NCBI GenBank assembly: GCA_004144175.1
Contig: SEFT01000006.1
Coordinates: forward strand, 124,001 to 188,000
Direction: 5' to 3'
DNA: 64,000 nt
Source: Sphingobacteriales bacterium
GTDB taxonomy: Bacteria > Bacteroidota > Bacteroidia > Chitinophagales > Chitinophagaceae
Of the stretch, positions 8,220-23,345 are shown in pieces. The notes beneath the pieces are model-generated. The model had not been told where the DNA came from and did no database searches. It saw only the letters and a list, made by a program, of their open reading frames with translations. How positions within the stretch are numbered: the stretch's first letter is position 1; the number at the start of each line of letters is the position of its first letter. The position numbers and the translations under genes were made by a program.

Positions 8220-8285
8220 CTCATACATCGTAAAGCTGAGACAGTCGTCTAGCAAAACTGTATTAACTCATAATAACAGTAATGT

Positions 8286-8579: not shown

Positions 8580-8589
8580 ATGAATAATA

Positions 8590-10245: not shown

Positions 10246-10252
10246 AAGGAAG

Positions 10253-10294
10253 TTAGGATATAGGATAGTCGTATTAGAACTTCCTATATCCTAA
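10253..10294. other. Long stem-loop after the DUF3987 gene
   Basis: A perfect 13-bp stem, TTAGGATATAGGA against TCCTATATCCTAA, with a 16-base loop. No T-run follows, so termination is uncertain. Confidence 0.5.
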
Positions 10295-10365
10295 ATCTTA
10301 AATTCTAAAAAACTAGGGTTCCGAGCAATATCGTTGAATGTAGTAGTCTATTATTAGTAAAAAAA

Positions 10366-10373
10366 TATCTTTG
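10366..10373 (+). promoter_or_regulatory. Putative -7 promoter box before the dCTP-deaminase-like gene
   Basis: TATCTTTG fits TAnnTTTG and lies 17 bases before the ATG at 10390. No good -33 TTTG is seen at the usual distance. Confidence 0.35.
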
Positions 10374-10389
10374 TTTCTAAAAATAGACT

Positions 10390-11370
10390 ATGGCCTTTTT
10401 GGGTTCACAAAAGTTAATAGAGCTTATCACTAATGAAAAGGTCATACTTCCCAACCCTGATACAAAGAGGGTGAAAGGTGGAGCTTATGAACTTTCCCTT
10501 GGGAATGAAGCATTCACAACAGATTCTAAAGATAAAAGGAAAGAAATATTTAGTAATAACGGACTTGTTACTATAAATCCGGGCCAGTTTGCGCTTTTAC
10601 TTACTTATGAGGAAGTCGATATACCACTTAGTAAGATCGCCTTTATTTCAATTAAAGCCGGTGTAAAACTGCGCGGGCTGGTGAATGTTTCAGGTTTTCA
10701 TGTCGATCCGGGCTTCAAAGGCAATCTCGTATTTTCAGTATATAATGCAGGTACAAGCCCCATTTCACTGGAGGTATGTGGTGAACCATATTTTTTGATA
10801 TGGTTTGCAGAGCTACAGCTAGCCACAGGAGAAACTACTGTTTATAATGGTGATCATAAGAATCAAAAGAGTATTCCACCAAAGTATATAGACGCTCTAA
10901 TCGCTGGGGAACTGGCCTCTCCAGTTGTTTTAAGTAGAAAGATTGAGGATAACTATAAAGCGGCTGACAACAAGATTGGGATCCTTAATAAGGAGATCGA
11001 CAATAAAATAGATAAGCATGAAAAAGAAATTGATAATCGGTTAAACAAACATGAGAAGGAAGTAGATAATAGATTAGACAAATACGAGAAGGATATTGAG
11101 GGGAAAATCAGTTTGCTTGAAAAAGAGCAGACAGCCAAAGATTATTTAGTAAAAACTGCAGTGGGATTGGGGGTAATCATTCTTATGAAAATCATCTTCG
11201 ATTATTTCGCTTACGATAATGGTGTTAAAAAGGGCGCTGAGTTTAAACAGATGGAGTTAAAGTCACAAATGGCCATTGAAAAATTACGCATCCAGGAAAG
11301 GGCAATTCTGATAGAAATTGATAGCCTCAGAAAATATAGAGATTCAGCTTTTCGAAACAAAGGTTTATGA
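10390..11370 (+). CDS. dUTPase/dCTP-deaminase-fold protein with coiled coil and membrane anchor
   Basis: 326 residues. Residues ~1-165 match the dCTP deaminase/dUTPase fold, with the core HVDPGFKGNLVFSVYNAG (104-121). The conserved Asp106 is kept. At the position of the catalytic Glu of dCTP deaminases (VLEFYN) there is Ser116, as in dUTPases (ISVWN), so deamination is doubtful. Residues 204-236 carry three near-identical 11-residue units (DNKIDKHEKEI type), a hendecad coiled coil. A transmembrane helix spans ~253-274, and a second coiled coil ends the protein. The stop overlaps the next gene's start (ATGA), so the two genes are translationally coupled. It may act as a nucleotide sensor or nucleotidase at the membrane, which is inference. 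Confidence 0.75.
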   Translation: MAFLGSQKLIELITNEKVILPNPDTKRVKGGAYELSLGNEAFTTDSKDKRKEIFSNNGLVTINPGQFALLLTYEEVDIPLSKIAFISIKAGVKLRGLVNVSGFHVDPGFKGNLVFSVYNAGTSPISLEVCGEPYFLIWFAELQLATGETTVYNGDHKNQKSIPPKYIDALIAGELASPVVLSRKIEDNYKAADNKIGILNKEIDNKIDKHEKEIDNRLNKHEKEVDNRLDKYEKDIEGKISLLEKEQTAKDYLVKTAVGLGVIILMKIIFDYFAYDNGVKKGAEFKQMELKSQMAIEKLRIQERAILIEIDSLRKYRDSAFRNKGL

Positions 11371-12101
11371 GAAATGCTTATCAAACGCATGAGTACTTCG
11401 TGGGGAAAATTGCACCTTTTTTACTATTTGAATTAGAGTTTCATAGTTTAGCCTATTTAGTGGAAAGCCATGAAGGTGATAAACATTATCCAGATGCTAA
11501 TCCTGCATCTCACGTATCATTTATTGGATTAGTCTCATATTTTGAAGCTTTTTGCAAGCATCAGTTTGCGGCACTTGTGAATATTTTCCCTGATTTGATT
11601 AGTGCCTTTGCCTTGAAAAGGGATGCGCCAAAACTTGAATTTTCGACAGTTGTATCCTTCCAAGGTGAGAATTTCAAGAAGTATGTAGGCTTTGTTCTCG
11701 CTGAACACTATGACTTTGGTTCAGCTAAACTAATCAATGGCTTGTATCGTGATCTCTTACAGATTACTCCCTTTACCAAAGAAGAAGAAAGGATGTTCAA
11801 TGATATTTTGCAACAGAGAAATTTACTTGTACACCATGCGGGATACTATACTTTAAAGCATTTTAAAGGTACCGCTAGACAAAATGATTTTGAGGAAAGA
11901 GTATTTAAGGATGCATTAAAAATCGGCATAGATGAATATTTGAAAATTTCTGATTTCATTTTCGGCATAGCTATAAAAATTGCTCGTGAATCAACAAAGG
12001 CTGCCAAAAGAATGACAGACTATGACACTTTATCAGTAGATCACGAAAAGCGCATCGCAGTAGCAGAACTTCTCAAAGGAATTTACGACACGCTCGAATA
12101 A
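11367..12101 (+). CDS. HEPN-like protein (putative RNase), partner of the upstream gene
   Basis: 244 residues, all-helical. QQRNLLVHHAGYY contains the HEPN motif R-x4-H (Arg151, His156). Before it lies a helix with SYFEAFCKHQFAAL, typical of RiboL-PSP/MAE-type HEPN families. HEPN proteins are metal-independent RNases or their scaffolds and are common toxins in phage defence and toxin-antitoxin systems. The start overlaps the stop of the membrane-anchored dUTPase-like gene by 4 bases, which suggests a two-gene unit. Active RNase function is inferred from the motif only. Confidence 0.65.
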   Translation: MRNAYQTHEYFVGKIAPFLLFELEFHSLAYLVESHEGDKHYPDANPASHVSFIGLVSYFEAFCKHQFAALVNIFPDLISAFALKRDAPKLEFSTVVSFQGENFKKYVGFVLAEHYDFGSAKLINGLYRDLLQITPFTKEEERMFNDILQQRNLLVHHAGYYTLKHFKGTARQNDFEERVFKDALKIGIDEYLKISDFIFGIAIKIARESTKAAKRMTDYDTLSVDHEKRIAVAELLKGIYDTLE

Positions 12102-12120
12102 ATAAAAAATTTTGGCCGTA

Positions 12121-12158
12121 TGAAAATCCTACATACATTTGTTTGAAAATCCTACATA
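12121..12158. promoter_or_regulatory. Direct-repeat operator candidate upstream of the carrier/XRE genes
   Basis: TGAAAATCCTACATA occurs twice exactly, at 12121-12135 and 12144-12158, a 23-base period (about two helix turns). The second copy abuts the ATG of the carrier-like gene. The nearby XRE protein at 12435 is a candidate ligand. Confidence 0.5.
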
Positions 12159-12445
12159 TGGTGAAGCTTAGTACCGAAGCAGTGGAAAATGAAATAGTAA
12201 AAGTGATTGAGCAATTCAAAGTGGCGTTCGGATTAGATTGCGAAATAGATGTAAATAGTTCGCCAGGGGAAATTGAATCAATTTCAAGTTTAATGCTGGT
12301 AACAGCATCCACTCGAGTTGGACGCGCACTAGGCGTGACGATTCCATTAGGGTGTTATATTTTTTGCGATAAAGCCAAAGGGAGACAATTGACAATTAGG
12401 GAGGCTGCTCAGAAATTAATCAAAGAAGCTAAATATGGAGAATAA
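12158..12445 (+). CDS. Acyl-carrier-protein-like protein
   Basis: 95 residues from the ATG at 12158; a TTG 5 codons upstream is possible. The layout follows ACP: a first helix (ENEIVKVIEQFKVAFGL), a long loop, then Ser44-Leu45 starting helix 2. Exactly as in E. coli ACP, Ile-Pro comes 18-19 residues after that Ser (LGVTIP), followed by a C-terminal helix LTIREAAQKLI matching ACP ITTVQAAIDYI. The motif is SSL rather than DSL. A phosphopantetheinyl transferase gene (15516-15890) lies in the same island, which supports Ser44 as a carrier site. It overlaps the XRE gene by 11 bases. What it would carry is unknown. Confidence 0.6.
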   Translation: MVKLSTEAVENEIVKVIEQFKVAFGLDCEIDVNSSPGEIESISSLMLVTASTRVGRALGVTIPLGCYIFCDKAKGRQLTIREAAQKLIKEAKYGE

Positions 12446-12779
12446 TAATCTAAATGATGATCGTGAGAAGATTGCTTCGAGGTTAAAAGAGGCAAGAGTT
12501 ATGGCTGGATTGTCGCAAGCACAAGCTGCTGATAGGCTTGGATTGCAGAGGCCCGCAATTTCGGAAATTGAATCAGCCAAAAGAAAGGTAAGTGCTGAGG
12601 AAATAATTCAATTTGCAAGTTTGTATAGGGTGGATACTTCATGGTTGCTGCTGCAAGATAAAGAAAACGAACAAAGTATGTCTCAGCACTTAAAGTTTGC
12701 GGCTAGGGAACTAGAAAAGCTAAGCGAAGATGACATTCGTAAGTTAATTGATGTTCTAAAAATACTTCCAAAGAAGTGA
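12435..12779 (+). CDS. XRE-family transcriptional regulator
   Basis: 114 residues. A Cro/C1-type HTH occupies residues ~12-65 (IASRLKEARVMAGLSQAQAA, then LGLQRPAISEIESAKRKV). A short helical C-terminus follows. It overlaps the carrier-like gene upstream and ends 4 bases before the ImmA/IrrE peptidase gene. XRE-ImmA pairs act as repressor and anti-repressor protease in integrative elements such as ICEBs1. It probably binds the direct repeats at 12121-12158 and controls this operon. Confidence 0.9.
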   Translation: MENNNLNDDREKIASRLKEARVMAGLSQAQAADRLGLQRPAISEIESAKRKVSAEEIIQFASLYRVDTSWLLLQDKENEQSMSQHLKFAARELEKLSEDDIRKLIDVLKILPKK

Positions 12780-12783
12780 TCTA

Positions 12784-13641
12784 ATGAGCGCCTTATATTT
12801 AAAAGCTGCAGTTAAAGCTGATGAGATTAGGGAACGATTGGAATTGAGTATGTTCCAGCCAATTAACATCTTTGATGCTAGCGTTAGTCTAGGACTTGGC
12901 GTACGTTTTTTGGATATAAATATGGAGGGTATGTACATTAGCCACGAAAATGGACTGTCCCCCACAATTTTACTTTCCAATCAGCGCCCATTACCTCGTC
13001 GATGTTATACCTGTGCCCATGAATTAGGGCACCACTTTTTCGCGCATGGAACAAAATTAGACGCACTTTCTAGTGAGGCGGGTGGAATTAGTGTCGATAA
13101 TTTGGATGAACAACTAGTTGATGCTTTTGCTGGTTCATTGTTAATGCCTATTGCTGGTGTTCAAGCAGAGTTTGCGAAAAGGAATATACTATTAAAAGCA
13201 GCTTCACCAGTTGACTTTTATATTGTAAGTTCTGTTTTTGGAACCGGCTACCAGACATTAGTCACTCATTGCAGCGCTAATGGATTAATAGATGAAACAA
13301 AGAAAAGATCTCTGCTTAAGTATTCGCCTGCGAAAATATTACATGAGCTGTTTGGTTTGGAAATAAAAAATTCCTACTTCAAAATTGTTGATTCAAAATT
13401 TCCTGTTTCAATCGTTGATCTAGAGGTTGGGAATTATGTTGTACTCCCGCTTTCTGCAAAGGTCGAAGGCGATCACCTTCAATACGTTCAAACAACAAGG
13501 CTGGGGATTGGCTATCGTGCTATTAAGTCTGGAGTATTTCGTGCTGCTATTGATGGGGAATCCGGTCACTTTATAAGAATACAAAAGCATGGTTATATTG
13601 GTCTTGCCGAATATCGCCATCTAGAAAATGAAAATGAATGA
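12784..13641 (+). CDS. ImmA/IrrE family metallopeptidase
   Basis: 285 residues. The zinc motif HELGHHFFAHG (HExxH) lies near residues 79-89, after RRCYTCA. A downstream acidic helix (LDEQLVDAFAGSLLMP) supplies the third ligand region typical of the ImmA/IrrE family. The C-terminal half is a less conserved domain. The family cleaves XRE-type repressors to induce mobile elements or stress genes. The adjacent XRE protein is the obvious substrate candidate. Its last 14 bases overlap the start of the TS-like gene, so control and modification genes are co-translated. Confidence 0.9.
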   Translation: MSALYLKAAVKADEIRERLELSMFQPINIFDASVSLGLGVRFLDINMEGMYISHENGLSPTILLSNQRPLPRRCYTCAHELGHHFFAHGTKLDALSSEAGGISVDNLDEQLVDAFAGSLLMPIAGVQAEFAKRNILLKAASPVDFYIVSSVFGTGYQTLVTHCSANGLIDETKKRSLLKYSPAKILHELFGLEIKNSYFKIVDSKFPVSIVDLEVGNYVVLPLSAKVEGDHLQYVQTTRLGIGYRAIKSGVFRAAIDGESGHFIRIQKHGYIGLAEYRHLENENE

Positions 13642-14380
13642 TTTTATGAATACATCCCCAATTTTGATCGAAGGTGTAAATCTTTCTGAAGCATGGCGTA
13701 TAACTTTAGAGCGCACAGTCGCTGACTCTAACCATGAGATTACTCCCCTAGTCCTGTCGCTCTCAAATTTCGAGGAGTCGAAGCATATTAGAAATATATT
13801 AGACAGGGAATTGAAGAAGGATAAGAAAGGGTCTGTGGAGACCGTTTCGGAAACGATATTTCCTGAATCTATATACAGGCTTTATAACCATGACAGATAT
13901 GCATTCTATGAAGGGTATCTTGACATCCTTCCGCAAATCAAAAAAATAGATGCTCGAAGTAACAGTAGAGGTACCTATTTTGAAAGACTGATTGCTTATA
14001 GGGGCACTACGGGAAAAATTAACCAGTTGGAAATAATTATATCTTCTCTGAAAGACAAGCAAAATAGACGACGATCTAAACTTCAAGCATCAGTTTTTGA
14101 TCCAACGACAGATCACACAAACAGTCCATATCAACGGTTTCCTTGCTTACAGCATGTTACATTCTACGTAACCAGCAATGGTCTTGTTTTAAATAGTTTT
14201 TATGCAATACAATATCTTTACGAGAGAGCATATGGCAATTGGCTTGGGTTGATAAATCTAGGAAAATTTGTGGCAAACGAACTCGATTTGAAATTCGATA
14301 AATTCAATTGCTATATAGGTGTTGAAAAACTTGATATGAATACATCGAAGGCTAGAGAACTGCTAAAAATGACCAATTAG
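13628..14380 (+). CDS. Divergent thymidylate-synthase-like protein (pyrimidine hydroxymethylase candidate)
   Basis: 250 residues. The C-terminal half shows the thymidylate synthase core: catalytic Cys173 in QRFPCLQHVTFYV, then a helix ERAYGNWLGLINLGKFVANEL and a GVEKLD strand, corresponding to TS blocks around GVPFNIASYALL and GDAHLY. The N-terminal half is unusual and shorter than in true ThyA (~264 residues). TS homologues beside 5-hmdU-kinase/pyrophosphorylase-clade genes usually make hydroxymethyl-dUMP rather than dTMP. It overlaps the ImmA gene by 14 bases and is followed at 37 bases by the clade gene. The exact substrate is not readable from sequence. Confidence 0.65.
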   Translation: MKMNDFMNTSPILIEGVNLSEAWRITLERTVADSNHEITPLVLSLSNFEESKHIRNILDRELKKDKKGSVETVSETIFPESIYRLYNHDRYAFYEGYLDILPQIKKIDARSNSRGTYFERLIAYRGTTGKINQLEIIISSLKDKQNRRRSKLQASVFDPTTDHTNSPYQRFPCLQHVTFYVTSNGLVLNSFYAIQYLYERAYGNWLGLINLGKFVANELDLKFDKFNCYIGVEKLDMNTSKARELLKMTN

Positions 14381-14417
14381 CATCCTCTCCTTAGAAAGAC
14401 TATTTTTGTCGCTTATT

Positions 14418-15467
14418 ATGACGCAGGTGATAAAAAATCAGCTATTTAAAGAGCCCGAGTTACAGCCAAGTGTAAGTTCTAGTTTGACCATACATGTTGC
14501 ATTGTCACCTGCTAAAATAACCGAAGTATACGACACTTATTGGAAGTTTGCTGCCCTTAGACAAGAGGCATTTTTTAATCGCTTAGAGGGTAGGCCATAC
14601 CCTTGGTCGAGTGATGCTATTGTTAACCGACACAAATTTACCAACGTTTACCGGGCAGCGGATAGGGTCAGTCAATTTTTGATAAAGAACGTTATCTACA
14701 ATGAAGATTTGCCTAATACTGCTGATGAAATATTGTTTAGAATCTTGTTATTCAAGCTTTTTAATAAAATAGAAACTTGGGAATTGCTTACTTCAAAGAT
14801 TGGCAAGCTGACACTAGCAGATTATAGCTTTGATAAATATGACAAGATATTAACGGAAGCAATTACATCAGGTAAGCGAATTTATTCTGCAGCTTATATT
14901 ATGCCTTCAGGGCAATCCTATTTCGGTTTTGTTAGAAAGCATTCTAACCATTTAAAACTAATAGAACTAATTATTAAGGGAGAGACGCACAAGCGCCTGG
15001 CTGATGTAAGGACAATGCAAGGCGCTTTCGAATTGCTAAAAAGTTTTCCAGGCTTAGGCGATTTTCTTGCATATCAGTTACTGATAGATATTAATTACTC
15101 TACAATTATAGATTTTTCTGAATCGGATTTTGTTGTAGCAGGACCTGGGGCAAAAGGTGGAATCAGCAAATGTTTTCAGGATACAGGCGGGCTTAGCAAT
15201 GTGGAGATTATTAAACTGGTGACTGATAGGCAGGAAAAAGAGTTTGATAGATTGAACTTGCCATTTAGGACTTTGTGGGGGCGCCGCTTGCAGCTAATCG
15301 ACTGTCAAAATATTTTTTGTGAAGTTGATAAATATGCAAGGGTTAGACATCCGGATATAAAAGGCGATAGTGACAGAACAAGGATAAAGCAAATGTTTAA
15401 AATTAATCCTAAACCAATAGATTACTGGTTCCCGCCGAAGTGGGAGATCAATGACAAATTACTATAG
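14418..15467 (+). CDS. 5-hmdU DNA kinase helical-domain / putrescinyl-thymine pyrophosphorylase-clade protein
   Basis: 349 residues from the ATG at 14418; an upstream TTG adds four residues. Signature stretches are RPYPWSSDAIVNRHKFTNVY, then RAADRVSQFLI, and a helix-hairpin-helix-like FPGLGDFLAYQLLIDI leading to ESDFVVAGPGAKGGISKCF. This matches the glycosylase-like helical family described by Iyer, Aravind and colleagues in thymine hypermodification loci (HMUDK_hel / AGPT-pyrophosphorylase clade). No P-loop is seen, so a kinase role of this polypeptide alone is doubtful. It likely binds or alters hydroxymethyl-pyrimidine in DNA or nucleotides. It follows a TS-like gene and precedes an AcpS gene on the other strand. 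Confidence 0.7.
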   Translation: MTQVIKNQLFKEPELQPSVSSSLTIHVALSPAKITEVYDTYWKFAALRQEAFFNRLEGRPYPWSSDAIVNRHKFTNVYRAADRVSQFLIKNVIYNEDLPNTADEILFRILLFKLFNKIETWELLTSKIGKLTLADYSFDKYDKILTEAITSGKRIYSAAYIMPSGQSYFGFVRKHSNHLKLIELIIKGETHKRLADVRTMQGAFELLKSFPGLGDFLAYQLLIDINYSTIIDFSESDFVVAGPGAKGGISKCFQDTGGLSNVEIIKLVTDRQEKEFDRLNLPFRTLWGRRLQLIDCQNIFCEVDKYARVRHPDIKGDSDRTRIKQMFKINPKPIDYWFPPKWEINDKLL

Positions 15468-15515
15468 TAATAAGAAGATCGATGATTTCAAGATTTATGG
15501 ATTGTCAATTCTGCT

Positions 15516-15890
15516 TTAGCCTTGGGCGATAACGACTGCTATTGAGTAGTTTGTTGAATGAGAAATACTCAGTTGAAAAAACCGAATACCTAGAAGATCA
15601 GAAATCTTTTTTACTTCTCCAGAAATTATGAGCTCAGGTTTTCCTAAGCTATCGTTGAGGATTTGAATGTTATTCAAAGGTATTCCATCCCGCATTCCCG
15701 TCCCTAAACTTTTTACGGCAGCTTCTTTTGCCGCGAATCGTCCAGCTAAAAATTTAATGCCTTTTCTAGATTCATATAACTTAAGTTCTTCTGCTGAAAA
15801 TATGGTTTGTTGTATCGAAATGTCTGCCTCCCATTCAAGAACTTTGATCATATTATGTTCAACAATATCACATCCAATTCCAACTATCAT
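15516..15890 (-). CDS. acpS: Holo-ACP synthase (4'-phosphopantetheinyl transferase), island copy
   Basis: 124 residues, normal AcpS length. Motifs are MIVGIGCDIVEH at the start, FLAGRFAAKEAAVKSLGTG in the middle (Mg and CoA binding) and FQLSISHSTNYSIAVVIA at the end. AcpS transfers phosphopantetheine from CoA to the carrier-protein serine. It is the only minus-strand gene in the left two-thirds of the island and as AT-rich as its neighbours, so it is cargo rather than the host housekeeping gene. Together with the ACP-like gene at 12158 it suggests a dedicated carrier-protein step. Whether it also serves the host ACP cannot be told here. Confidence 0.9.
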   Translation of the reverse strand: MIVGIGCDIVEHNMIKVLEWEADISIQQTIFSAEELKLYESRKGIKFLAGRFAAKEAAVKSLGTGMRDGIPLNNIQILNDSLGKPELIISGEVKKISDLLGIRFFQLSISHSTNYSIAVVIAQG

Positions 15891-16009
15891 TTAGGGTATT
15901 TTATTTATCCAAATTATGATTAGGCAGTGTAATAGCAATCCATCTTTGCAAAAATCGAAATACTTGAATTCTAATATAGTAAGATATATAACATAAACCT
16001 AAACAAACT

Positions 16010-16017
16010 TAACTTTG
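16010..16017 (+). promoter_or_regulatory. Putative -7 box for the TS/Nmad/TIR/SLOG operon
   Basis: TAACTTTG fits TAnnTTTG and lies 56 bases before the ATG at 16074, in the only sizeable gap (15891-16073) before the six-gene operon. No clear -33 TTTG is seen. Confidence 0.4.
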
Positions 16018-16073
16018 AATGGAGGCGGCGAAAGAAATAAACACATTGCAAATAAAAATTCAAATTCGAGAGC

Positions 16074-17138
16074 ATGTATTCAGTGGAATTTAAGGGCATT
16101 AATTCTTTCTTGGTAGGCGCATCAAAATTGCTTCTTCAAGAGGGTGTTAAAAGAAATACAAGGGGCGAAGTTTGCTATGAGTTACCTGCACCAATAATAA
16201 TTAAGATAAGTAATCCTTGTGCTAGAATAGTAACAATACCAGAGCGGAAGTGGAATTTAACTTTACCCTACGCGGAATCATTGTGGATTGCATCTGGACG
16301 TAATGACATAGCACTTATAAAGCACTACTTGAAAAAAATGCTTAATTATTCAGATGATCATTTGTTCATGAGAGCTGGATATGGCCCAAGACTGCGCTTT
16401 CATAATGGTATTAAAAACGACTATGAAATAGGATTTACGTCTCATGAAATCAGGCAAGAAGGTGTAGAGGTAGTCGAAGTAGACCAATTCAAGTTCATTG
16501 AAAAGATATTTGAAAGAGATCCCAATACACGACAGGCAATTATTTCAATAAATGATCCTGCAAAAGACTTCTTCTCAAGCTCAGAGAATTTAAAAGTAAC
16601 TAAGGATTTCCCTTGCACTTGTACAATCCAATTTTTAAAGGTTAATGGCAAACTTGATTTGATCGTCCATATGCGCTCAAACGATTTTGTATGGGGCGCA
16701 TCTGCCGTGAACATTTTCAATTATACGTTTATGCAGGAGTATTTCTCGAGAATATTAAATCTCGAGATTGGCAACTATTATCATGTAGTAAACAATTTTC
16801 ATTATTATGAAAATTTCAAAGGACTACTGCAAACACTCGCAGATATTAATCATCCCTTAGATGACTCGTATGAATACGGAAAAGCATTTAGGAATTTAGA
16901 AGAGTTTGATCAAATGATTAGACTTTTGGAAAGCTACGAGAATGATATACGTAACCGAAGGGTCAGTTCCATTATAGATTTTGGTGATGATTTTTTTAAT
17001 GATTGGGCTAAGATGCTTTACCGTTTTAATATAGACAAGAATTTTAATAAATTTACTAATCCGATTTTGGTAAATTTATTATCTCATAATACTGATGGAT
17101 ATACAACTGAACAAAGACCAACTCACACCGCTAAGTGA
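16074..17138 (+). CDS. Thymidylate synthase family protein, first gene of the TIR/SLOG operon
   Basis: 354 residues, longer than ThyA. Residues ~55-265 match the TS fold: catalytic Cys181 in KDFPCTCTIQFL, phosphate-binding RSND (201-204), VWGASAVNIFNYTFMQ around the pyrimidine-recognition Asn, and YYHVVNNFHYYE in place of GDAHLY. The Asn near 213 suggests a uracil rather than cytosine substrate (dCMP hydroxymethylases have Asp), but the spacing is shifted by one, so this is tentative. A helical C-terminal extension (~265-354) is extra. The last 44 bases overlap the Nmad1 gene. The likely product is a modified dUMP such as 5-hydroxymethyl-dUMP. Confidence 0.75.
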   Translation: MYSVEFKGINSFLVGASKLLLQEGVKRNTRGEVCYELPAPIIIKISNPCARIVTIPERKWNLTLPYAESLWIASGRNDIALIKHYLKKMLNYSDDHLFMRAGYGPRLRFHNGIKNDYEIGFTSHEIRQEGVEVVEVDQFKFIEKIFERDPNTRQAIISINDPAKDFFSSSENLKVTKDFPCTCTIQFLKVNGKLDLIVHMRSNDFVWGASAVNIFNYTFMQEYFSRILNLEIGNYYHVVNNFHYYENFKGLLQTLADINHPLDDSYEYGKAFRNLEEFDQMIRLLESYENDIRNRRVSSIIDFGDDFFNDWAKMLYRFNIDKNFNKFTNPILVNLLSHNTDGYTTEQRPTHTAK

Positions 17139-17388
17139 GGATATTATTGAAATGTTGCTAAAAAAGAATGCTGATTATGGATCGGCAAGTTTTGATCTTG
17201 GACTGAATGGCAATATGGTGCATTTGTGGGACAAGGTTAAGCGTTATCGTACGCTAGTTGAAAAACAACAGTGCAGCAATGCAAAACCAAACTTTGAATC
17301 GATCGAAGACACGCTTAGGGATATTATCGGGTATGCATTAATTGGTTTAACAATAATTAAAAATAGTAGTGATGGAGAAAGCATGTAA
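17095..17388 (+). CDS. Nmad1 / DUF1599 nucleotide-modification-associated protein
   Basis: 97 residues. The signature LLKKNADYGSASFDLGLNGN, then LWDKVKRYRTL and LRDIIGYALIGL, is that of DUF1599 (Nucleotide modification associated domain 1), a small all-alpha MazG-like fold. The family was named for its repeated presence in nucleotide and DNA-base modification loci. It is embedded between a TS homologue (44-base overlap) and a TIR gene (17-base overlap), so it is almost certainly co-translated with both. Its biochemical activity is not known; nucleotide binding or pyrophosphohydrolysis is plausible. Confidence 0.8.
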   Translation: MDIQLNKDQLTPLSEDIIEMLLKKNADYGSASFDLGLNGNMVHLWDKVKRYRTLVEKQQCSNAKPNFESIEDTLRDIIGYALIGLTIIKNSSDGESM

Positions 17389-17842
17389 TGTTTTCATAAG
17401 CCATCATCATGCAGATGATGAGCACATAGGCAAGATGAAGGATTTACTTGCAGCGAAGGGTTATCAGCTAAAGAACAGCTCAATCGATAGCAGTAAACCC
17501 AATAGGATAATTTCTGATGAAGCAATCAAACGTCTTTTAAGATTACGGATATCTTGGGCCGGCACATTCATTTGTCTAATTGGCCCAGATACCCACAATC
17601 GGCCTTGGGTAGATTGGGAGATAGATGAGGCCTTCAAAAAGGGTAAACGTATTATTGGGGTTTTTGCTCATGGTGCGAAAGATTCTGACGTTCCAGAGAA
17701 TTTTAAGCTATATGGCAATGCTCTCGTTGGCTGGAATAGTGACAAGATAATAGACGCTATTGAGGGGCGCCTTAACAATTCGGAAAATTCCGATGGCTCT
17801 CCAAAAGAGAGGTCTTGGGATGTTGAACGTGAAATTTGCTAG
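17372..17842 (+). CDS. ThsB-like TIR-fold protein (DUF1863 / MTH538 type)
   Basis: 156 residues from the ATG at 17372. The TIR-like core is NVFISHHHADDEHIGKMKDL at the start, then FICLIGPDTHNRPWVDWEIDEA, with Glu83 in the expected catalytic position after the conserved Trp, and a GKRIIGVFAHG strand. This is the family of Thoeris ThsB, which on infection converts NAD to a cyclic ADP-ribose isomer that activates an SLOG-domain effector. A SLOG protein is encoded in the same operon, but no SIR2-SLOG ThsA gene is present. The C-terminus is a short charged tail. NADase activity is inferred. Confidence 0.85.
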   Translation: MEKACNVFISHHHADDEHIGKMKDLLAAKGYQLKNSSIDSSKPNRIISDEAIKRLLRLRISWAGTFICLIGPDTHNRPWVDWEIDEAFKKGKRIIGVFAHGAKDSDVPENFKLYGNALVGWNSDKIIDAIEGRLNNSENSDGSPKERSWDVEREIC

Positions 17843-17845
17843 AAT

Positions 17846-18469
17846 ATGAAGTTCTATACCTATCCTATTGTAAGAGACTTTGGATTTGCACCCAACCCTT
17901 TTGGGGGTTATTGCACATTGGCTACATGTAAACCATTATTGCGAAAGCATGCTGCTGTAGGAGATTGGATTTTTGGCACTACTTCCGTTACAGGACATAG
18001 TGTCGTGGGTAGATTGGTTTATGCAATGCGGGTAGATGAGAAGCTTACTTTTAATGAGTATTGGCATGACCCCCGCTTTTTCTATAAGAAACCTACGTTC
18101 AACGGCAGTCTAATTCAATGCTATGGTGACAATATTTATCATTTAAAATCTGATGCAAAGTGGCACCAAGAGGATTCGCACCACAGCCTGAATGGAGGAG
18201 CTACAAATATGAAAAATCTGAGAAATGATACACAATGGCCTAACGTTTTGATATCTCGGAGGTATTACTATTTTGGAAAGAATCATGTCGTCATTCCAGA
18301 AGATATTAAAGTTGAGATGTGCCACAATAAGCGCGTTCCGACCTATAAGGAGATACCAGAACCCATCGGTCAACAGGCTATTAAATGGTTATCAGATCAG
18401 TTTAGCCAATGCGTAATACTCGGAGTGCCGTTCCACTTAAATAACAGTTTTACAAGATTTGCAGGTTAG
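17846..18469 (+). CDS. Nmad2-like nucleotide-modification-associated protein
   Basis: 207 residues. The N-terminus YPIVRDFGFAPNPFGGYCTL, then ATCKPLLRKHAAVGDWIFGT, matches Nucleotide modification associated domain 2. The rest has an alpha/beta, EVE/ASCH-like look with many aromatic residues (RRYYYFGKNHVVIP), as expected for a protein that recognises modified bases. It starts 3 bases after the TIR gene and ends 24 bases before the dual-TIR gene. A reader or enzyme of modified nucleotides is a reasonable guess; the reaction is unknown. Confidence 0.75.
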   Translation: MKFYTYPIVRDFGFAPNPFGGYCTLATCKPLLRKHAAVGDWIFGTTSVTGHSVVGRLVYAMRVDEKLTFNEYWHDPRFFYKKPTFNGSLIQCYGDNIYHLKSDAKWHQEDSHHSLNGGATNMKNLRNDTQWPNVLISRRYYYFGKNHVVIPEDIKVEMCHNKRVPTYKEIPEPIGQQAIKWLSDQFSQCVILGVPFHLNNSFTRFAG

Positions 18470-18493
18470 GCATTCTGTCTTCAATTGGAAAAT

Positions 18494-19675
18494 ATGCATT
18501 TTGAACAGCCGTTGGAAATCTATGTTGCATGGCACCCTTCATTTGAGGAGGGGATGGATCATGCAAAGAGATTGTTCAGTATCTTCTGTAGAGATTACAA
18601 GAAGCCTTTCGACACAACGTTATCTATACCAACTTATTTTCGGTATTTAGGTGAAGATAACATACCCGCACCTATCGAAACAGGGAATGTGAGTAAGTGC
18701 GCTATTGTACTTTTGATTGACGATAACATCATAATTGATAAGAAATTTAGGACTTATGTTGACCGGTTAGTCCAAGTTGAGAAGGATAGCTCAGGCAACC
18801 ATCGCATTTTCCCTATTGCGTTTACCAAAAGCTTTAATAATCTACACGAGTTTATTTCCTCAAAGAATGTCATAAGAGCTTATGATGATCGCTTATTGTC
18901 AACTCTGGCTTGTTCTCAGGATGACCTAATCAAGTCTGCACTTTTACATGAGGTTAGTAGATTAATGCTGCAATTAGAAGCCGTACAAGCTGAATCGTTA
19001 TTAGGTGCGCCGCCTCCAATTAGATTGTTTCTTAGTCATTCAAAACATGATTCGACTCAAAACAGTGCCATGGAGTTTAAACGCTTTATACATGACAGGA
19101 CTCAGCTAAAAACTTTCTTCGATGTACATGATATAGGGTATGGGTATGACTTCGCAGATGAAATTAAGAAAGGTATAAGAGAAAGCGTATTGGTCGTTTT
19201 TCAGTCTGATAGCTATGCGAGTAGAGAATGGTGTAGAATAGAGGCGATTACGGCAAAGGCACACAATTGTCCTGTCATTGTTGTAAATGCATTGGAAAAA
19301 GGTGAGAAAAGGAGCTTTCCTTACCTAGGAAATGTTCCGACTATTCGTTTAGGTGGTAGTAACTTTCATGAAATTGTGGATATGGCTTTAGAAAAGGTTC
19401 TATATAATGTTTATCAGAAAGCCTTAATGACACAAATGGCAAACCTTTACAATCTGGATGTCAATTATACAATGGCCAATTTCCCGGAACTCTTTGACAT
19501 AATTAACATTCAGAATCAAATGAAAGAAGGTAAAAGAGATTTTTCAATTGTACTTTATCCTGATCCACCATTAGGTAGCGAAGAGTTGAAACTGCTAAAT
19601 GATATGAACGACAACCTTTTCTTTATTACGCCTAATCAACTCCCTACGTTAGAAATAATAAGCAATGGAAGATAA
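18494..19675 (+). CDS. Dual TIR-domain protein
   Basis: 393 residues from the ATG at 18494. Residues ~5-120 look like a degenerate TIR-like domain (PLEIYVAWHPSFEEGMDHAK, later CAIVLLIDDNIIID and FPIAFTKS). Residues ~175-300 are a canonical TIR domain: IRLFLSHSKHDS, a DIGYG loop, SDSYASREWCRIEA with putative catalytic Glu250, then NCPVIVVNAL. A C-terminal region of about 90 residues lacks a recognised domain. The last 11 bases overlap the SLOG gene, so the two are made together. The family includes NADases and nucleotide-signal synthases of anti-phage systems. The first domain may be regulatory. Confidence 0.8.
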   Translation: MHFEQPLEIYVAWHPSFEEGMDHAKRLFSIFCRDYKKPFDTTLSIPTYFRYLGEDNIPAPIETGNVSKCAIVLLIDDNIIIDKKFRTYVDRLVQVEKDSSGNHRIFPIAFTKSFNNLHEFISSKNVIRAYDDRLLSTLACSQDDLIKSALLHEVSRLMLQLEAVQAESLLGAPPPIRLFLSHSKHDSTQNSAMEFKRFIHDRTQLKTFFDVHDIGYGYDFADEIKKGIRESVLVVFQSDSYASREWCRIEAITAKAHNCPVIVVNALEKGEKRSFPYLGNVPTIRLGGSNFHEIVDMALEKVLYNVYQKALMTQMANLYNLDVNYTMANFPELFDIINIQNQMKEGKRDFSIVLYPDPPLGSEELKLLNDMNDNLFFITPNQLPTLEIISNGR

Positions 19676-20606
19676 TCCTAAAATAGGCTCAGTAAGTACT
19701 GATCCAATAATTAACGGAATTATCATAGACAGTAAGGACGCCGTACAAAAACGTCGCTTTTTCCTAAGAGGGAAAAATGTTGCTATTTCAATTTCAGAAT
19801 GTGAAGATCTTGGGCGTTACGGTTTTTCAATTTGCCACTTACAGGATGCAATGATCGAGATTGCTAGGTATATACTCTCTGTTGGCGGTAATCTGCTATA
19901 CGGTGGAGACCTGCGACAAGGCGGGTTTACTGAAATTCTTATGGATTTGGTTGAAGTCTACAAAGATTATGAGGACTTCAAGGGGCATAGGCTTATAAAC
20001 TTCCTTGCTTGGCCTTCTAATTTGACATTAACATCTAAGATAGAAGCAGAGTACTTTAATAAAATTAGGTTTGAGACAATATTTCCGAACATAGCAGGAT
20101 TTGATGACCCCTCAAGTCAGCTCAGGCAGGGCAGCGGTCAAAGAAGTATTTTGATTGCAAATGCACTGTCTCAAATGCGGTATGCGTTAGAGAAGGAAAG
20201 CCACGCAAAGATCTTGGTTGGTGGAAAAAGTGCCAAATATGCAGGATTGCTACCTGGGATACTAGAGGAATTCCAAGCTGCAATATTGTTGAATAAACCT
20301 ATTTATTTGATTGGTGGATTTGGCGGTATGACACGTCTAATCTCCAATGTTGTTAAGGGTACAGCTAAAATAGAAAATGTCGTTGAATCCTTGGATTATG
20401 AGTTTATAAACGCTTACAACAAAGTAGCCGTTGAGAAATTCGACGTAAATAACCTTATCAAAGCTGTCAATTCAGTGGACTTAAGAAAAATCGCTACTAA
20501 TAGCGGGTTAACGGAAGATGAATATTTAGTTCTAACTACAACAAATAATATATCGGTTATAGTATACTTAGTATTGAAAGGCTTAAATCGAATTTTGAAC
20601 GTTTGA
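19665..20606 (+). CDS. SLOG-superfamily nucleotide-binding protein
   Basis: 313 residues. Rossmann-like SLOG features are GKNVAISISECEDL (first strand), SVGGNLLYGGDLRQGGFTEI (residues ~72-91), and a later AKILVGGKSAKYAGLLPGI plus KPIYLIGGFGGMTRLI. SLOG domains bind nucleotide ligands; in Thoeris ThsA the SLOG part senses the TIR-made cyclic ADP-ribose isomer. Here there is no SIR2 or membrane effector domain on the same chain, so it may be a sensor acting through the TIR protein it overlaps (11 bases), or an enzyme producing or cleaving a signal. It is the last gene of the operon and convergent with the next TIR gene. Confidence 0.8.
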   Translation: MEDNPKIGSVSTDPIINGIIIDSKDAVQKRRFFLRGKNVAISISECEDLGRYGFSICHLQDAMIEIARYILSVGGNLLYGGDLRQGGFTEILMDLVEVYKDYEDFKGHRLINFLAWPSNLTLTSKIEAEYFNKIRFETIFPNIAGFDDPSSQLRQGSGQRSILIANALSQMRYALEKESHAKILVGGKSAKYAGLLPGILEEFQAAILLNKPIYLIGGFGGMTRLISNVVKGTAKIENVVESLDYEFINAYNKVAVEKFDVNNLIKAVNSVDLRKIATNSGLTEDEYLVLTTTNNISVIVYLVLKGLNRILNV

Positions 20607-20608
20607 GT

Positions 20609-21160
20609 TTATTTGTCCCAGTCTAAAACTAAATCTAAAGGATGAGACATTTGATAGTGGCTAAATAACCTATGCTCAGTTACAAGGTTTTCAACACTAT
20701 TACCTTTAATAGAAGCAACGTATTTGTTTACGGATTGAGTTCCTCTTAAGAGTAGTGGTGCTGCCTTGATGTAGTCAGGTAACTCGGTATCTGTAATGCC
20801 CTTCAACGTTAAAACCGCTAACCTAGTTTTGTCGTAGCCGTAGCCAACTTCAAACGGTACCCATTTAGAAGCTAAGGTATTTTTGGAGATGACACATAAC
20901 ATGTGAGTACTTGAATCGATACCATGTCGTATTGAATTGATGACGCCGGACGGGTTGTGATTTCTTCTGAAGTCTGCTAAATGCTCGTCTTCCTCATCAA
21001 AGTATACGTCTAGATCAGCCTTGATGATGTACTCAACTATTTTTTTACATTCTGGTGAATCTCTTTTTTGATGGCTGATAAAAATACAAGGCTTGTTTTC
21101 TTTGATGCTTTGAGAAATAGTGTAGGGATATGTTTTTGTTTCCGCTCGATTGATAGCCAT
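20609..21160 (-). CDS. Single TIR-domain protein (TIR_2 type)
   Basis: 183 residues. The core is KPCIFISHQKRDSPECKKIV, then LDVYFDEEDEH, THMLCVISKNTLASKWVPFEV with putative catalytic Glu104, and an AVLTLKG strand. It ends two bases from the end of the SLOG gene on the opposite strand and is followed upstream by a small XRE gene in the same direction. It could be a third signalling enzyme of the same system or a separate TIR defence gene that shares the island. Confidence 0.85.
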   Translation of the reverse strand: MAINRAETKTYPYTISQSIKENKPCIFISHQKRDSPECKKIVEYIIKADLDVYFDEEDEHLADFRRNHNPSGVINSIRHGIDSSTHMLCVISKNTLASKWVPFEVGYGYDKTRLAVLTLKGITDTELPDYIKAAPLLLRGTQSVNKYVASIKGNSVENLVTEHRLFSHYQMSHPLDLVLDWDK

Positions 21161-21236
21161 AAGGTATTTTCCACCAAATTAATAAATCAACTTTATTAGC
21201 TAATAAATCTCCTCGATAGGACGCCTTAAGGACCCT

Positions 21237-21488
21237 TCATACCTTCGCATTAATGAACTTTTCAGGCAAAAAATCTCGTGGTGAGCATTCTAATATCTCC
21301 GCAAGTTTATTGATATGATTTAAGTTGTACTTAGCGATGGATTTTGGGCTTTCGATATCGCCAATAAAGCTTGGCGAAAGGTCAAGTAAATATGCTAGCT
21401 CTCTTTGAGACAAACCCTTTTCAATTCGTTTTTCTCGCACGGCGTCAATAACATATTGCTCTATAGGCGTGATCCCATTATTCGACAT
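21237..21488 (-). CDS. XRE-family regulator beside the TIR gene
   Basis: 83 residues from the ATG at 21488; a GTG five codons upstream is possible. The HTH spans ~12-66: VREKRIEKGLSQRELAYLLD, then LSPSFIGDIESPKS and a CSPRDFLP tail. It lies 76 bases upstream of the TIR gene on the same strand and is divergent from the small membrane gene at 21576. It probably represses its own promoter and the TIR gene. Confidence 0.85.
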   Translation of the reverse strand: MSNNGITPIEQYVIDAVREKRIEKGLSQRELAYLLDLSPSFIGDIESPKSIAKYNLNHINKLAEILECSPRDFLPEKFINAKV

Positions 21489-21575
21489 TATTGTGATTTG
21501 CACAAATAATGAGTATGTATTGAAATGGCTTGCTCGTATATATACGTGTGTTTATCTTTATCAGAAAACTTTCTT

Positions 21576-22040
21576 ATGAAACAGCAGAAAAGTTTAGTTG
21601 CTGCAATACTTCTTAGCGTATTGTTAGGTCCTATCGGAGTATTTTATGCAAGTATCTGGAGCGGGACAATCCTCACTTTTGGTCCATTTATACTAGTATT
21701 TTTATTAAAGGCACCGCAATATGCGAGTTTAGGCGACGCTATTGAAAGTACCCTTCTAACCGTATTTACGATCGGTATTCTTTCCTTTGTGATCTATTGG
21801 CCGTTTTGCATTATGTGGTCTGCACTCATGACCGTCATATACAATCGCAGAGTGAACAAATCGAATTATCGACTTGCTAGAACTCTGACGACCGTGGAAC
21901 CGGTAAAAGTTCAGCGTAATACAATTCGAAAAGCCGAGCCTCAAAAACAAAGCAATGCAGAGGTGCGACCAAAAATCGGAGACTGGCTTCGTGATAATCC
22001 TGGGAAGACGATGCAAGATTATCATTCCAATTTTAAATAA
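21576..22040 (+). CDS. Small membrane protein of unknown function
   Basis: 154 residues from the ATG at 21576; the upstream ATG at 21525 adds an unlikely 17-residue leader. Two or three transmembrane helices (residues ~6-30, 35-48 and 52-85) are rich in Ile/Leu/Phe. A basic cytoplasmic tail ends in KIGDWLRDNPGKTMQDYHSN, a motif I associate with uncharacterised Bacteroidota proteins. It is 11 bases upstream of the deiminase-fold gene, so the two are probably co-transcribed. Small membrane proteins next to TIR genes can be effectors, but there is no direct evidence here. Confidence 0.6.
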   Translation: MKQQKSLVAAILLSVLLGPIGVFYASIWSGTILTFGPFILVFLLKAPQYASLGDAIESTLLTVFTIGILSFVIYWPFCIMWSALMTVIYNRRVNKSNYRLARTLTTVEPVKVQRNTIRKAEPQKQSNAEVRPKIGDWLRDNPGKTMQDYHSNFK

Positions 22041-22051
22041 TCATCTACAAT

Positions 22052-23062
22052 ATGAACATCCAAACTGACTACTCAAAAGTAGATACCGTTCTTATTGCCT
22101 ATCCTCAAGGCTTCAACAACGAATTCGAAGAACTGGTTCCCTTTTACGATTTACTACTAACGAAGATTCCTTTTGATATCAATATCCTTGTTGTCGTAAA
22201 CAGTAAAAGTGCAAGAGAACGCCTCAAACTGAAGTTCAAAAATCGAAAGCTTGAAATACTTGTGTTCGAGGAATGGGACGATATTTGGATGAGAGACATA
22301 ATCGGTATCGGTATAAATCAGTCGATAGTTAAGCCGCTATACGATTGTACTTATTGCAACTATCTTAGAGCAAATCGAAACTTCAATAAGCTAAATAGTA
22401 TAACGGAAATCCTTATTAAGGATCACCTTAAAAAAGAACTTGTCAAAGTTCCGTTGAAATTAGATGGAGGTAATATGATACTTAATAGCAAGTACGCATT
22501 TATCACGAAGAAAATATTCCAAGATAATGGCGACATAACGGAAGAAGAAGTTCTCGACATCTTAAATCAGAGGCTTGGCATAACTCCAATAATAGTGCCG
22601 TCAAATACAGGAGATAGTTTGGGCCACATTGATGGCTATTTAGCATTCTTGAATGATGAAACTATTGCTGTGGTAGAGTATCCAAAGATGGATGTTTTTA
22701 AGAACGACAATCTATATTCTAGTACTCTCGTAAAGTACTGCAACGATCTAACTCTAAGAGTCGTTAAGATACAAGAGCGTCCCATTAGTCAAGCTATAGC
22801 TTGCGAATGCGATATGCAGAAATCAAAAAAATACTGTTGCTACAGTTCAATTGGCAATTACATTAACTATCTGCGAATAAATAATACGATTATTCTGCCA
22901 GAGTATACCCTACCAACATTAAAAGAAACAGTCTACTATAACAACACAAATGAGGAGGAGCTATCAAATCTAGGCTTTCAAGTGATCAAAATTAATTGCG
23001 ATATACTGGGACGACATGGTGGATCACTAAGGTGTCTTAGCTACACATGCAGTTTAAATTAG
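22052..23062 (+). CDS. Agmatine deiminase / peptidylarginine-deiminase-fold protein
   Basis: 336 residues, the usual length of the family. Guanidino-modifying motifs are visible in order: EEWDDIWMRDI (substrate Asp), LDGGNMI, the catalytic His in DSLGHIDGYLAF, and catalytic Cys in HGGSLRCLSYT near the C-terminus. The family hydrolyses agmatine to N-carbamoylputrescine or citrullinates peptidyl-arginine. Host copies are normally in polyamine genes; this one is AT-rich and the last gene of the island. A link to putrescine-type base modification is attractive but speculative. It may equally modify arginine-containing proteins. Confidence 0.8.
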   Translation: MNIQTDYSKVDTVLIAYPQGFNNEFEELVPFYDLLLTKIPFDINILVVVNSKSARERLKLKFKNRKLEILVFEEWDDIWMRDIIGIGINQSIVKPLYDCTYCNYLRANRNFNKLNSITEILIKDHLKKELVKVPLKLDGGNMILNSKYAFITKKIFQDNGDITEEEVLDILNQRLGITPIIVPSNTGDSLGHIDGYLAFLNDETIAVVEYPKMDVFKNDNLYSSTLVKYCNDLTLRVVKIQERPISQAIACECDMQKSKKYCCYSSIGNYINYLRINNTIILPEYTLPTLKETVYYNNTNEEELSNLGFQVIKINCDILGRHGGSLRCLSYTCSLN

Positions 23063-23142
23063 AATCTTCGAATTTTCCTTGAAAAACGCGTAAATCCAGA
23101 GATTTCTTATGAGGACAACTATTGGGACGACCACAAAGGCTA

Positions 23143-23171
23143 GAAAAAAGAAAATGCCGGAAAATCCGGCA
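23143..23171 (-). terminator. Island-borne terminator for the rebuilt tRNA
   Basis: On the minus strand TGCCGGA, a TTT loop and TCCGGCA are followed by TTTTCTTTTTT. It lies just downstream of the tRNA 3' end, inside the island, and probably replaces the native terminator displaced to 6592-6625. Confidence 0.75.
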
Positions 23172-23187
23172 CTTTCGCGAAATTTTA

Positions 23188-23202
23188 GTGGGCCCACTAG
23201 GA
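23188..23202. repeat. Right attachment-site repeat within the tRNA 3' end
   Basis: GTGGGCCCACTAGGA, identical to 6628-6642. It covers the tRNA discriminator base, acceptor 3' strand and part of the T arm. Confidence 0.88.
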
Positions 23203-23262
23203 CTTGAACCTAGGACCACCTGATTATGAGTCAGGTGCTCTAACCAACTGAGCTATAGGCCC
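23189..23262 (-). tRNA. tRNA with CAU anticodon, probably tRNA-Ile2 (lysidine), possibly elongator tRNA-Met
   Basis: 74 bases, full cloverleaf: acceptor GGGCCTA against TGGGCCC, D arm GCTC/GAGC, anticodon stem CCTGA/TCAGG with loop CTCATAA, T arm CCTAG with loop GTTCAAG type. CCA is not encoded. The acceptor pairs C4-G69 and C5-G68 match the known TilS determinants of tRNA-Ile2, so isoleucine is preferred over methionine. It is the integration target of the island; the 3' end is supplied by the element and the gene is intact. Confidence 0.92.
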
Positions 23263-23345
23263 GGCTGTGAAGCCAAAATTAGGATGGCAAAAGTAGTAGT
23301 TTTTCTATAAAAACAAAAAAGAAACGAAAGTTTATTTTTGCATCC

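Follow-up and report, generated by a model that had tools for sequence, protein, structure and literature searches.

The described systems closest to the operon considered here are the types of Thoeris, the thymidine hypermodification loci of phages, modification-dependent restriction and the nucleotide-modification defence systems of E. coli. The operon lies on a 64,000-nucleotide stretch of a Sphingobacteriales bacterium genome (GenBank assembly GCA_004144175.1, contig SEFT01000006.1, positions 124,001 to 188,000 of the forward strand; hereafter the window, in whose own numbering positions are given) and consists of six same-strand genes (16074-20606) for a thymidylate synthase (TS) homologue, Nmad1, a ThsB-like TIR protein (TIR1), Nmad2, a two-domain TIR protein and a SLOG protein. 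With Thoeris types I and II it shares the ThsB-type TIR1 (scores in Table 1), but it adds modification genes and Nmad2, and no ThsA (SIR2-SLOG or Macro-TM) is found among the operon proteins, the rest of the genome not having been searched for it. The likeness to Thoeris type III is in the arrangement of a TIR protein of ~390 residues directly before SLOG, often with separate TIR genes near; the window SLOG, however, is of Pfam cluster 2, not cluster 3. Membership of the window pair in type III is rejected: the TIR protein scores 33 bits against ThcB4 (NF058526), where the cut-off is 220, and the SLOG protein has no match to ThcA (NF058525, cut-off 110 bits). The genome as a whole also gave no ThcA match, in a search in which 14 controls were likewise silent.

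Phages SPO1, ViI-like, M6 and PhiW-14, which we take to carry out thymidine hypermodification chemistry, resemble the locus in two ways: the operon TS shares the site pattern of the phage enzymes, and the HMUDK_hel protein encoded upstream, of predicted helix-hairpin-helix (HhH) fold, has as its nearest solved fold a 5-PmdU glycinyltransferase. Here, in contrast, the genes are bacterial and tied to TIR genes, and Nmad2 was not found in phage records. Modification-dependent restriction (an EVE/PUA reader with a nuclease, as in VcaM4I) is approached through the predicted PUA-like fold of Nmad2, but the proposed output of the operon is TIR signalling, not a nuclease. In the accessible text of the EVE survey (PMC7641849) none of TIR, Thoeris or Nmad occurs as a whole word. 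The DefensePredictor study (PMC13092281) validates 42 units in E. coli phage defence, with domains that include 5-hydroxymethyluracil kinase and thymidylate synthase, and the operon has the same domain types as the systems described there. The legend to its Fig. 3C explains TS, dNMPk, 5hmdUk and NMAD; the study further predicts systems with aGPT-Pplase, MazG, MazG-C and NMAD (aGPT-Pplase, NMAD and UDG in the legend to Fig. 6F) and credits several predicted systems to a 2015 study, and its main text is without the words TIR, SLOG or Thoeris. A blastn search for a counterpart in E. coli to the Pectobacterium unit gave no match, and the annotation of an E. coli plasmid TS locus (L148) is of a different set (metallophosphoesterase, MazG, TS) and lists no TIR gene. 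In the searchable literature nothing was found on the TIR1-Nmad2 unit, on the predicted reader fold or on the hydroxymethylase partner, although Burroughs 2015 and Iyer 2013 may predict parts. The operon is not categorically new: its parts are covered by Thoeris and by partly validated nucleotide-modification defence.

On balance, and judging from sequence comparison, the operon is probably a mobile, modular anti-phage system of Thoeris-like kind, in which thymidine-modification genes make up the sensing arm. Its TIR1-Nmad2 pair bridges two fields that are usually separate, immunity by TIR/SLOG second messengers and the hypermodification of thymidine, for which phages are the main known source, and candidates can be named for a reader (Nmad2), a hydroxymethylase (the TS homologue) and an effector of membrane type (C1, an unnamed family). 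On what a Thoeris-type TIR protein senses, this gene set offers a concrete handle; if it is true that modification gates the alarm, self would be told from non-self without cutting DNA.

An earlier note, made from the letters and open reading frames of this DNA, had described six closely packed genes. Order, strand and spacings all match the reading frames, each spacing fitting one alternative start: the TS-like gene and Nmad1 overlap by 44 nucleotides (nt), Nmad1 and TIR1 by 20 nt (GTG start at 17369) or 17 nt (ATG start at 17372), a 3-nt gap separates TIR1 from Nmad2 and one of 15 nt (TTG start at 18485) or 24 nt (ATG, 18494) separates Nmad2 from the TIR protein, which overlaps SLOG by 11 nt. 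The identities proposed for TS, Nmad1, the ThsB-like TIR, Nmad2 and SLOG have the support of Pfam, the domain calls in all six genes scoring above its cut-offs. The label 'dual-TIR' is borne out by half: Pfam recognises the second TIR domain, and no TIR model covers the first ~170 residues. The flanks extend further than first described, with HMUDK_hel upstream and an additional minus-strand TIR gene (TIR3) downstream. It is convenient to speak of three modules: HTH, ImmA-like, U13628 and HMUDK_hel (module 1, 12435-15467), TS-Nmad1-TIR1-Nmad2 (module 2, 16074-18469) and the two-domain TIR protein with SLOG (module 3, 18485-20606).

The pairing of TIR1 with Nmad2 was followed through 84,980 genomes (species), where four Nmad2 queries found 201 relatives; the analysis went on with the best 80. 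TIR1 lies immediately 5' of Nmad2 on the same strand in 77 of these 80 loci. (Adjacency here means, operationally, that the TIR1-profile homology ends between -30 and 260 nt from where the Nmad2 homology begins.) Two of the three remaining loci, L080 and L118, are cut at a contig end, and L081 is not. When adjacency is judged more strictly, by called start codons, 59 adjacent pairs are left among the 79 of the best 80 loci that have a called Nmad2 frame; 17 fail with room available and 3 at a contig end. The TIR Glu (Glu84 in the window TIR1) is present in 120 of 123 aligned TIR1-profile matches. Record titles of the loci point to more than a dozen phyla (naming Bacteroidetes, Pseudomonadota, Bacillota, Streptomyces, Phormidesmis, Anaerolineae, Nitrospira, Myxococcus, Spirochaetes, Planctomycetota, Verrucomicrobia, Acidobacteria and others). 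A phylum sample of 395 genomes, the window's own included, has Nmad2 in 14, SLOG cluster 2 in 7 and HMUDK_hel in 7; TIR1 adjoins Nmad2 in 5 of the 14. The TIR1 profile finds in this sample five close members (the same five from which it was built), all beside Nmad2, and then nothing until E 1.7e-21. Three of the 7 HMUDK genomes have TIR1-Nmad2 and 4 have HMUDK in a module-1 setting, with no Nmad2 match in these genomes and no TIR1-profile gene in the stretches fetched from them (one a contig of 5.6 kb). The surveys probably share one locus, L110 and contig G244:C41 being identical in length and in gene layout.

The full TS+Nmad1+TIR1+Nmad2 set recurs in 11 loci besides the window (L045 and ten of the 80), 8 of them with a contiguous HMUDK-TS-Nmad1-TIR1-Nmad2 array, 1 with an inserted gene and 2 with TS and HMUDK convergent. 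This recurrence and the adjacency of TIR1 to Nmad2 bear out the suggestion that the genes occur together beyond chance. At the level of gene order, TS-Nmad1-TIR1-Nmad2 is a conserved unit with TIR1-Nmad2 as its core pair.

Partners of the core pair vary in a patterned way. Modification genes in the 79 loci are MazG of the MazG_C type (48), HMUDK (40), TS (22), Nmad1 (10) and DCD (9). MazG is found in 0 of the 22 TS loci vs 48 of the 57 others (p 1e-12; this and the following p-value ignore shared ancestry and come from profiles iterated on the same loci), TS is accompanied by HMUDK in 21 of 22, and 30 loci have MazG alone of these genes. TIR1-Nmad2 travels with TS, HMUDK_hel and Nmad1 or DCD, or else with MazG. 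Within the 79 loci the UDG-like protein C2 is confined to the MazG variant (25 of 25); relatives of it are annotated as uracil-DNA glycosylase (UDG) in L196 (10085-10744) and L038, and it is also present in L062, L071 and L074.

Candidate effectors in the same 79 loci are the two-domain TIR protein (41), C1 (35), SLOG cluster 2 (16), SLOG cluster 3 (11) and SLATT (2), with none of these in 9. The TIR protein and C1 avoid one another (TIR protein in 8 of 35 C1 loci vs 33 of 44 others, p 4.6e-6). C1, of ~230 residues with one N-terminal hydrophobic stretch recognised by eye, matches no curated family above cut-off, is also found near other ThsB-like TIR genes, and is a candidate membrane-type effector. 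Of the 11 TS-Nmad1 loci, 8 have C1, 2 have TIR-SLOG (L064, L075) and 1 has neither (L065). L064 has the order of the window with one extra TIR gene (HMUDK, TS, Nmad1, TIR1, Nmad2, TIR, TIR protein, SLOG) and L042 has it permuted; G018, of the same family as the window, has MazG, TIR protein, SLOG, HMUDK, TIR1 and Nmad2 in that order. Among 72,556 plasmid records Nmad2 is in 16 and the TIR protein in 11, of which 5 also hold Nmad2 and 6 have no Nmad2 match; chance would give a co-occurrence of ~0.002. In four of the five SLOG cluster-2 genomes of the phylum sample that lack an Nmad2 match, the TIR protein adjoins SLOG or is fused to it. TIR-SLOG is exchangeable and not obligate, because it also stands without Nmad2 and because TIR1-Nmad2 units often carry another candidate effector; in gene content the pair fills a slot held elsewhere by the membrane-type protein or other candidate effectors. 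The earlier note's claim that the six genes form one system must therefore be divided: TS, Nmad1, TIR1 and Nmad2 are the conserved unit, to which TIR-SLOG is an interchangeable addition. To its question whether TIR-SLOG pairs are generally found without TS and Nmad genes the answer is mixed (without Nmad2 in 5 of 7 SLOG genomes, with it in 5 of 11 plasmid records).

Pairs scoring as type III are also found near the core. In L075, L083, L123 and L133, which are all four that were tested of the 11 SLOG-cluster-3 loci, the pairs near TIR1-Nmad2 pass the curated cut-offs of both ThcB4 (365-463 bits) and ThcA (208-252 bits); the window TIR protein matches the L075 ThcB4 only locally (94 residues, 27%). 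ThcA is in 29 plasmid records, 4 of which also have Nmad2, and in Cupriavidus (L196) TIR1-Nmad2-MazG-UDG comes just after a ThcA relative. The core pair and its modification genes may accordingly be a sensing module that can be plugged into multi-TIR hubs. L195, an E. coli plasmid with no Nmad2 match in its record, has a ThcA relative and its preceding TIR gene among four further TIR genes and a patatin-type phospholipase. L195 and L196 are both multi-TIR, type III Thoeris-like plasmid arrays with an annotated patatin-type phospholipase.

The TS homologue is an extra copy, the genome having a separate thyA (G000:C4:131725). This thyA and the site pattern rule out a household TS, and canonical ThyA is excluded by scores under every listed TS equivalog cut-off and by the loss of W80 and H147. 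Both residues are kept in 8 of 8 ThyA sequences and neither is present in any of 32 non-ThyA rows; all 24 system TS enzymes lack W80 and carry T or N in place of H147, as do the four phage enzymes compared with them (SPO1L5, M6, Det7, PhiW-14). The window protein retains equivalents of C146, R166, S167, D169, N177, H207 and Y209. Across the system enzymes the catalytic Cys and the dUMP-binding residues are kept, Asn177 in 23 of 24 (the roles of the catalytic Cys, of the dUMP-binding residues and of W80/H147 are assumed here). In a tree the split between ThyA and non-ThyA has support 100/100 and the window TS falls within a TS-Nmad1 clade of 12 rows (100/100); the phage rows are long-branched and form no single clade with it. 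The TS homologue matches 515 phage records; among an evenly spaced selection of these are SPO1-like, M6-like, Ackermannviridae (Det7) and PhiW-14 phages, which we presume to be thymidine-modifying, and the PhiW-14 record itself labels its TS-type gene as similar to dUMP hydroxymethylase. In its sites the homologue resembles phage dUMP hydroxymethylases and not ThyA, and it is predicted to be a dUMP 5-hydroxymethylase.

For Nmad2 an AlphaFold2 (AF2) model with a predicted local distance difference test (pLDDT) score of 91.5 is available. In the 50 Foldseek rows shown from the Protein Data Bank (PDB), 33 are titled ASCH or YTH, 1 (DrmAB) differs, and the other 16 (EVE proteins, THYN1, VcaM4I, TRIP4, EOLA1, ATP sulfurylases) we take to be of the PUA superfamily. 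On that assumption 49 of 50 rows are PUA-type, the best with an E of only 0.03; against viral structure models nothing was found at E 0.001. The fold is predicted, on weak scores, to be PUA/EVE-like. The AF2 model of the window HMUDK_hel (pLDDT 91.7) has as its top Foldseek row 8z2n, a 5-PmdU glycinyltransferase (E 0.35, probability 0.87). Next come 8-oxoguanine glycosylases and MutY, and helical folds of unrelated kinds turn up in lower rows. An HhH-like fold is predicted, and the reading as a P-loop kinase is rejected, Pfam finding no kinase domain in the window protein. In L107 (5776-7449), the long relative that was scanned, a thymidylate kinase is fused to HMUDK_hel, adjoining TS, TIR1 and Nmad2. 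An annotated O-methyltransferase (L150), an annotated radical SAM protein (L140) and one recognised by eye (L199) stand beside TIR1, Nmad2 and HMUDK elsewhere, which fits with a chemically elaborated base; in the part of the element's proteins that was scanned, no additional enzyme of side-chain chemistry was recognised.

The pathway proposed on these predictions is as follows. The TS homologue would convert dUMP to 5-hydroxymethyl-dUMP, Nmad1 (elsewhere DCD or MazG) would act on the nucleotide pool, and HMUDK_hel, from the adjoining module, would act on hydroxymethyl-dU (hmdU) or its derivatives, probably within DNA. Nmad2 would bind or process the modified base or nucleotide through its PUA/EVE-like fold. 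Infection would shift the amount or the place of modified thymidine, Nmad2 would relay the change to TIR1, and TIR1 would convert NAD+ into an ADP-ribose-type signal. SLOG and the second TIR protein would read the signal and halt infection, probably through NAD+ consumption, since the Glu of the C-terminal TIR domain is present in 32 of 32 aligned rows (the window counted twice). The modified base might act as a mark of self, one of the roles that the earlier note considered, or as a mark of the phage. A more ambitious version, which is advanced only tentatively, makes Nmad2 the reader, in DNA or in nucleotide pools, of an hmdU-type mark modified by the HhH transferase, gating a ThsB-type TIR in place of a nuclease, as a widespread immune design. 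It is equally conjectural that such a design would amount to restriction-modification logic with an NAD-derived alarm, plugging into type III-like Thoeris hubs and swapping effectors.

Several results weigh against this interpretation. None of the PDB comparisons reaches E 0.001 (best values 0.03 for Nmad2, 0.35 for HMUDK), and neither protein has a convincing sequence match to any solved structure. The invariant residues of Nmad2 include D11, N17, C23, C28, D95, Q108, H113 and D128, and with invariant Cys, His and Asp it could be an enzyme and not a reader. An hhalign comparison yields nothing to tie Nmad1 to MazG (probability 0.1%, shallow alignment), and their kinship is not claimed. All four Nmad2 queries came from TIR1 loci, so that the adjacency rule describes this Nmad2 subfamily; more distant Nmad2 proteins stand without TIR1 in 9 of the 14 genomes of the phylum sample. 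MazG without TS in 48 of 79 loci means that hydroxymethylation cannot be required by all. Of 7 SLOG cluster-2 genomes, 2 have Nmad2 and 5 do not. The window HMUDK gene lies outside the operon, and its product falls outside the clade (100/100) formed by all 11 TS-Nmad1 HMUDKs and L140, pairing with that of L192, a module 1 without TIR1 (69% identity, support 100/99). Because of this placement module 2 is here without its usual HMUDK. By these trees the window is a mosaic, with its TS from the TS-Nmad1 clade and its HMUDK grouping with one of module 1, and we infer that the adjoining module 1 may supply HMUDK to module 2 in trans.

The mosaic lends some credit to a reading of the locus as a defence-island composite, in which an independent TIR-SLOG-TIR3 system, with TIR3 as its own TIR, lies by chance behind a TS-Nmad1-TIR1-Nmad2 unit now without an HMUDK and effector of its own, both having been lost. 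TIR-SLOG with its own TIR genes and without Nmad2 is found in L036, L037, L054, L055 (a fusion) and L056, in L054 next to a close relative of TIR3. The single strand and the 11-bp overlap speak for one system, however, as do the same partnership in G018 and L064, the alternative candidate effector in 8 of 11 TS-Nmad1 loci and Nmad2 in 5 of 11 TIR-protein plasmid records, and a composite is possible but distinctly less likely than the system proposed above. Of about the same modest likelihood is a type IV restriction logic, the modification genes serving to sense or exploit phages with modified thymidine, by which Nmad2 would detect hypermodified phage DNA or hmdUTP and TIR1 would trigger abortive infection, with TS, Nmad1 and MazG merely tuning the pool. 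Its attraction is that the predicted fold of Nmad2 is like that of modification readers, including the modification-dependent nuclease VcaM4I, and that many Nmad2 loci have neither TS nor HMUDK, such as those with MazG alone; yet a hydroxymethylase of one's own is superfluous for a pure detector, and TS and HMUDK are retained together with near constancy.

A role for the modified nucleotide as a component of the signal itself, with ADP-ribose from NAD+ joined by TIR1 (or TIR1-Nmad2) to a thymidine derivative as messenger for SLOG, is rather unlikely. All the modification genes except HMUDK belong to kinds that act on free nucleotides, as is established for TS, DCD and MazG; the thymidylate kinase fusion of L107 is in keeping with this, but HMUDK and the UDG-like protein, with DNA-glycosylase-type folds or annotation, point to DNA. 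Certain SLOG proteins are described in PMC9503650 as sensors of nucleotide ligands. Very improbable is a role of the hypermodification genes in shielding the mobile element's DNA from host restriction, unconnected with TIR signalling. In its favour are the phage relatives of the TS homologue and the location of the genes on an integrative element; against it, Nmad2 has 0 matches in 50,697 phage records and just 4 relatives in a viral-contig scan, and almost every member of this Nmad2 subfamily has TIR1 beside it.

The operon is within a low-GC stretch, and all three modules are contained in a 16.6-kb segment at tRNA-Met (6628-23202) that, to judge from its 15-bp direct repeats and tyrosine recombinase, is likely an integrative element (Table 1). 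The attL-like repeat is the longest exact copy (15 nt) of any part of 23121-23270 within 1-23000.

Table 1. Features of the element in the window, with examples of the candidate effector C1 from other loci
Feature	Position	Strand	Basis or remark
attL-like 15-bp direct repeat of tRNA-Met 3' end	6628-6642		exact copy
Tyrosine recombinase	6720-8039	+	label by eye from translation; adjoins attL
DCD protein (dCTP-deaminase/dUTPase-like), C-terminal extension	10390-11370	+	PF22769 2.8e-10
HTH regulator, module 1	12435-12779	+	label by eye; cluster: window, L062, L107, L113, L126, L139
ImmA/IrrE-like protein, module 1	12784-13641	+	label by eye
U13628, uncharacterised, module 1	13628-14380	+	kept beside ImmA and HMUDK
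HMUDK_hel protein, module 1	14406-15467	+	PF18723 4.7e-107
AcpS-like phosphopantetheinyl transferase, cargo between modules 1 and 2	15516-15890	-	PF01648 7.5e-16
TS homologue, predicted dUMP 5-hydroxymethylase	16074-17138	+	PF00303 Thymidylat_synt 2.6e-15
Nmad1 (DUF1599)	17095-17388	+	PF07659 4.7e-7
TIR1, ThsB-like TIR, Glu84 present	17369-17842	+	PF08937 ThsB_TIR 6e-22; PADLOC ThsB PDLC00418 187 bits
Nmad2, predicted PUA/EVE/ASCH/YTH-like fold	17846-18469	+	PF18753 8.9e-66
Two-domain TIR protein	18485-19675	+	PF13676 TIR_2 1.3e-10, residues 182-289
SLOG cluster-2 protein, putative sensor of TIR product	19665-20606	+	PF18163 LD_cluster2 4.4e-64
TIR3, ThsB-like TIR	20609-21160	-	PF13676 3.7e-10
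HTH regulator adjoining TIR3	21237-21503	-	PF01381 7e-8
attR-like repeat, 3' end of tRNA-Met	23188-23202		tRNA-Met 23188-23262
C1 examples (other loci)	L045:9183-9881, L095:5060-5758, L035:11438, L055:10508		

The edges of the modules are less sharply drawn than their centres. The DCD family recurs in 9 of the 79 Nmad2 loci, and the DCD-like protein possibly belongs to module 1. ImmA/IrrE-like relatives sit immediately 5' of U13628 relatives in L107, L126 and L189-L192, U13628 itself having no match in Pfam or PADLOC. A module-1-type set, HTH-ImmA-U13628-(DCD)-HMUDK-(TS or MazG), recurs in L189-L192, where the four fetched stretches contain no TIR1-profile gene, and from its gene content it may be a separate nucleotide-modification defence system. 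TIR3 is probably part of module 3, a relative of it adjoining the stand-alone TIR-SLOG pair of L054.

Of other genes near the core pair or on the element, L109 has a type I restriction specificity subunit (12390-13799, by Pfam) near TIR1-Nmad2, with related genes in nine loci. The AcpS of the element has 124 residues; the PF01648 matches of 13 other genomes of the same genus are frames of 215-242 residues. Just within the right end of the element, at 22052-23062, is a gene that looks by eye like a member of the agmatine deiminase family.

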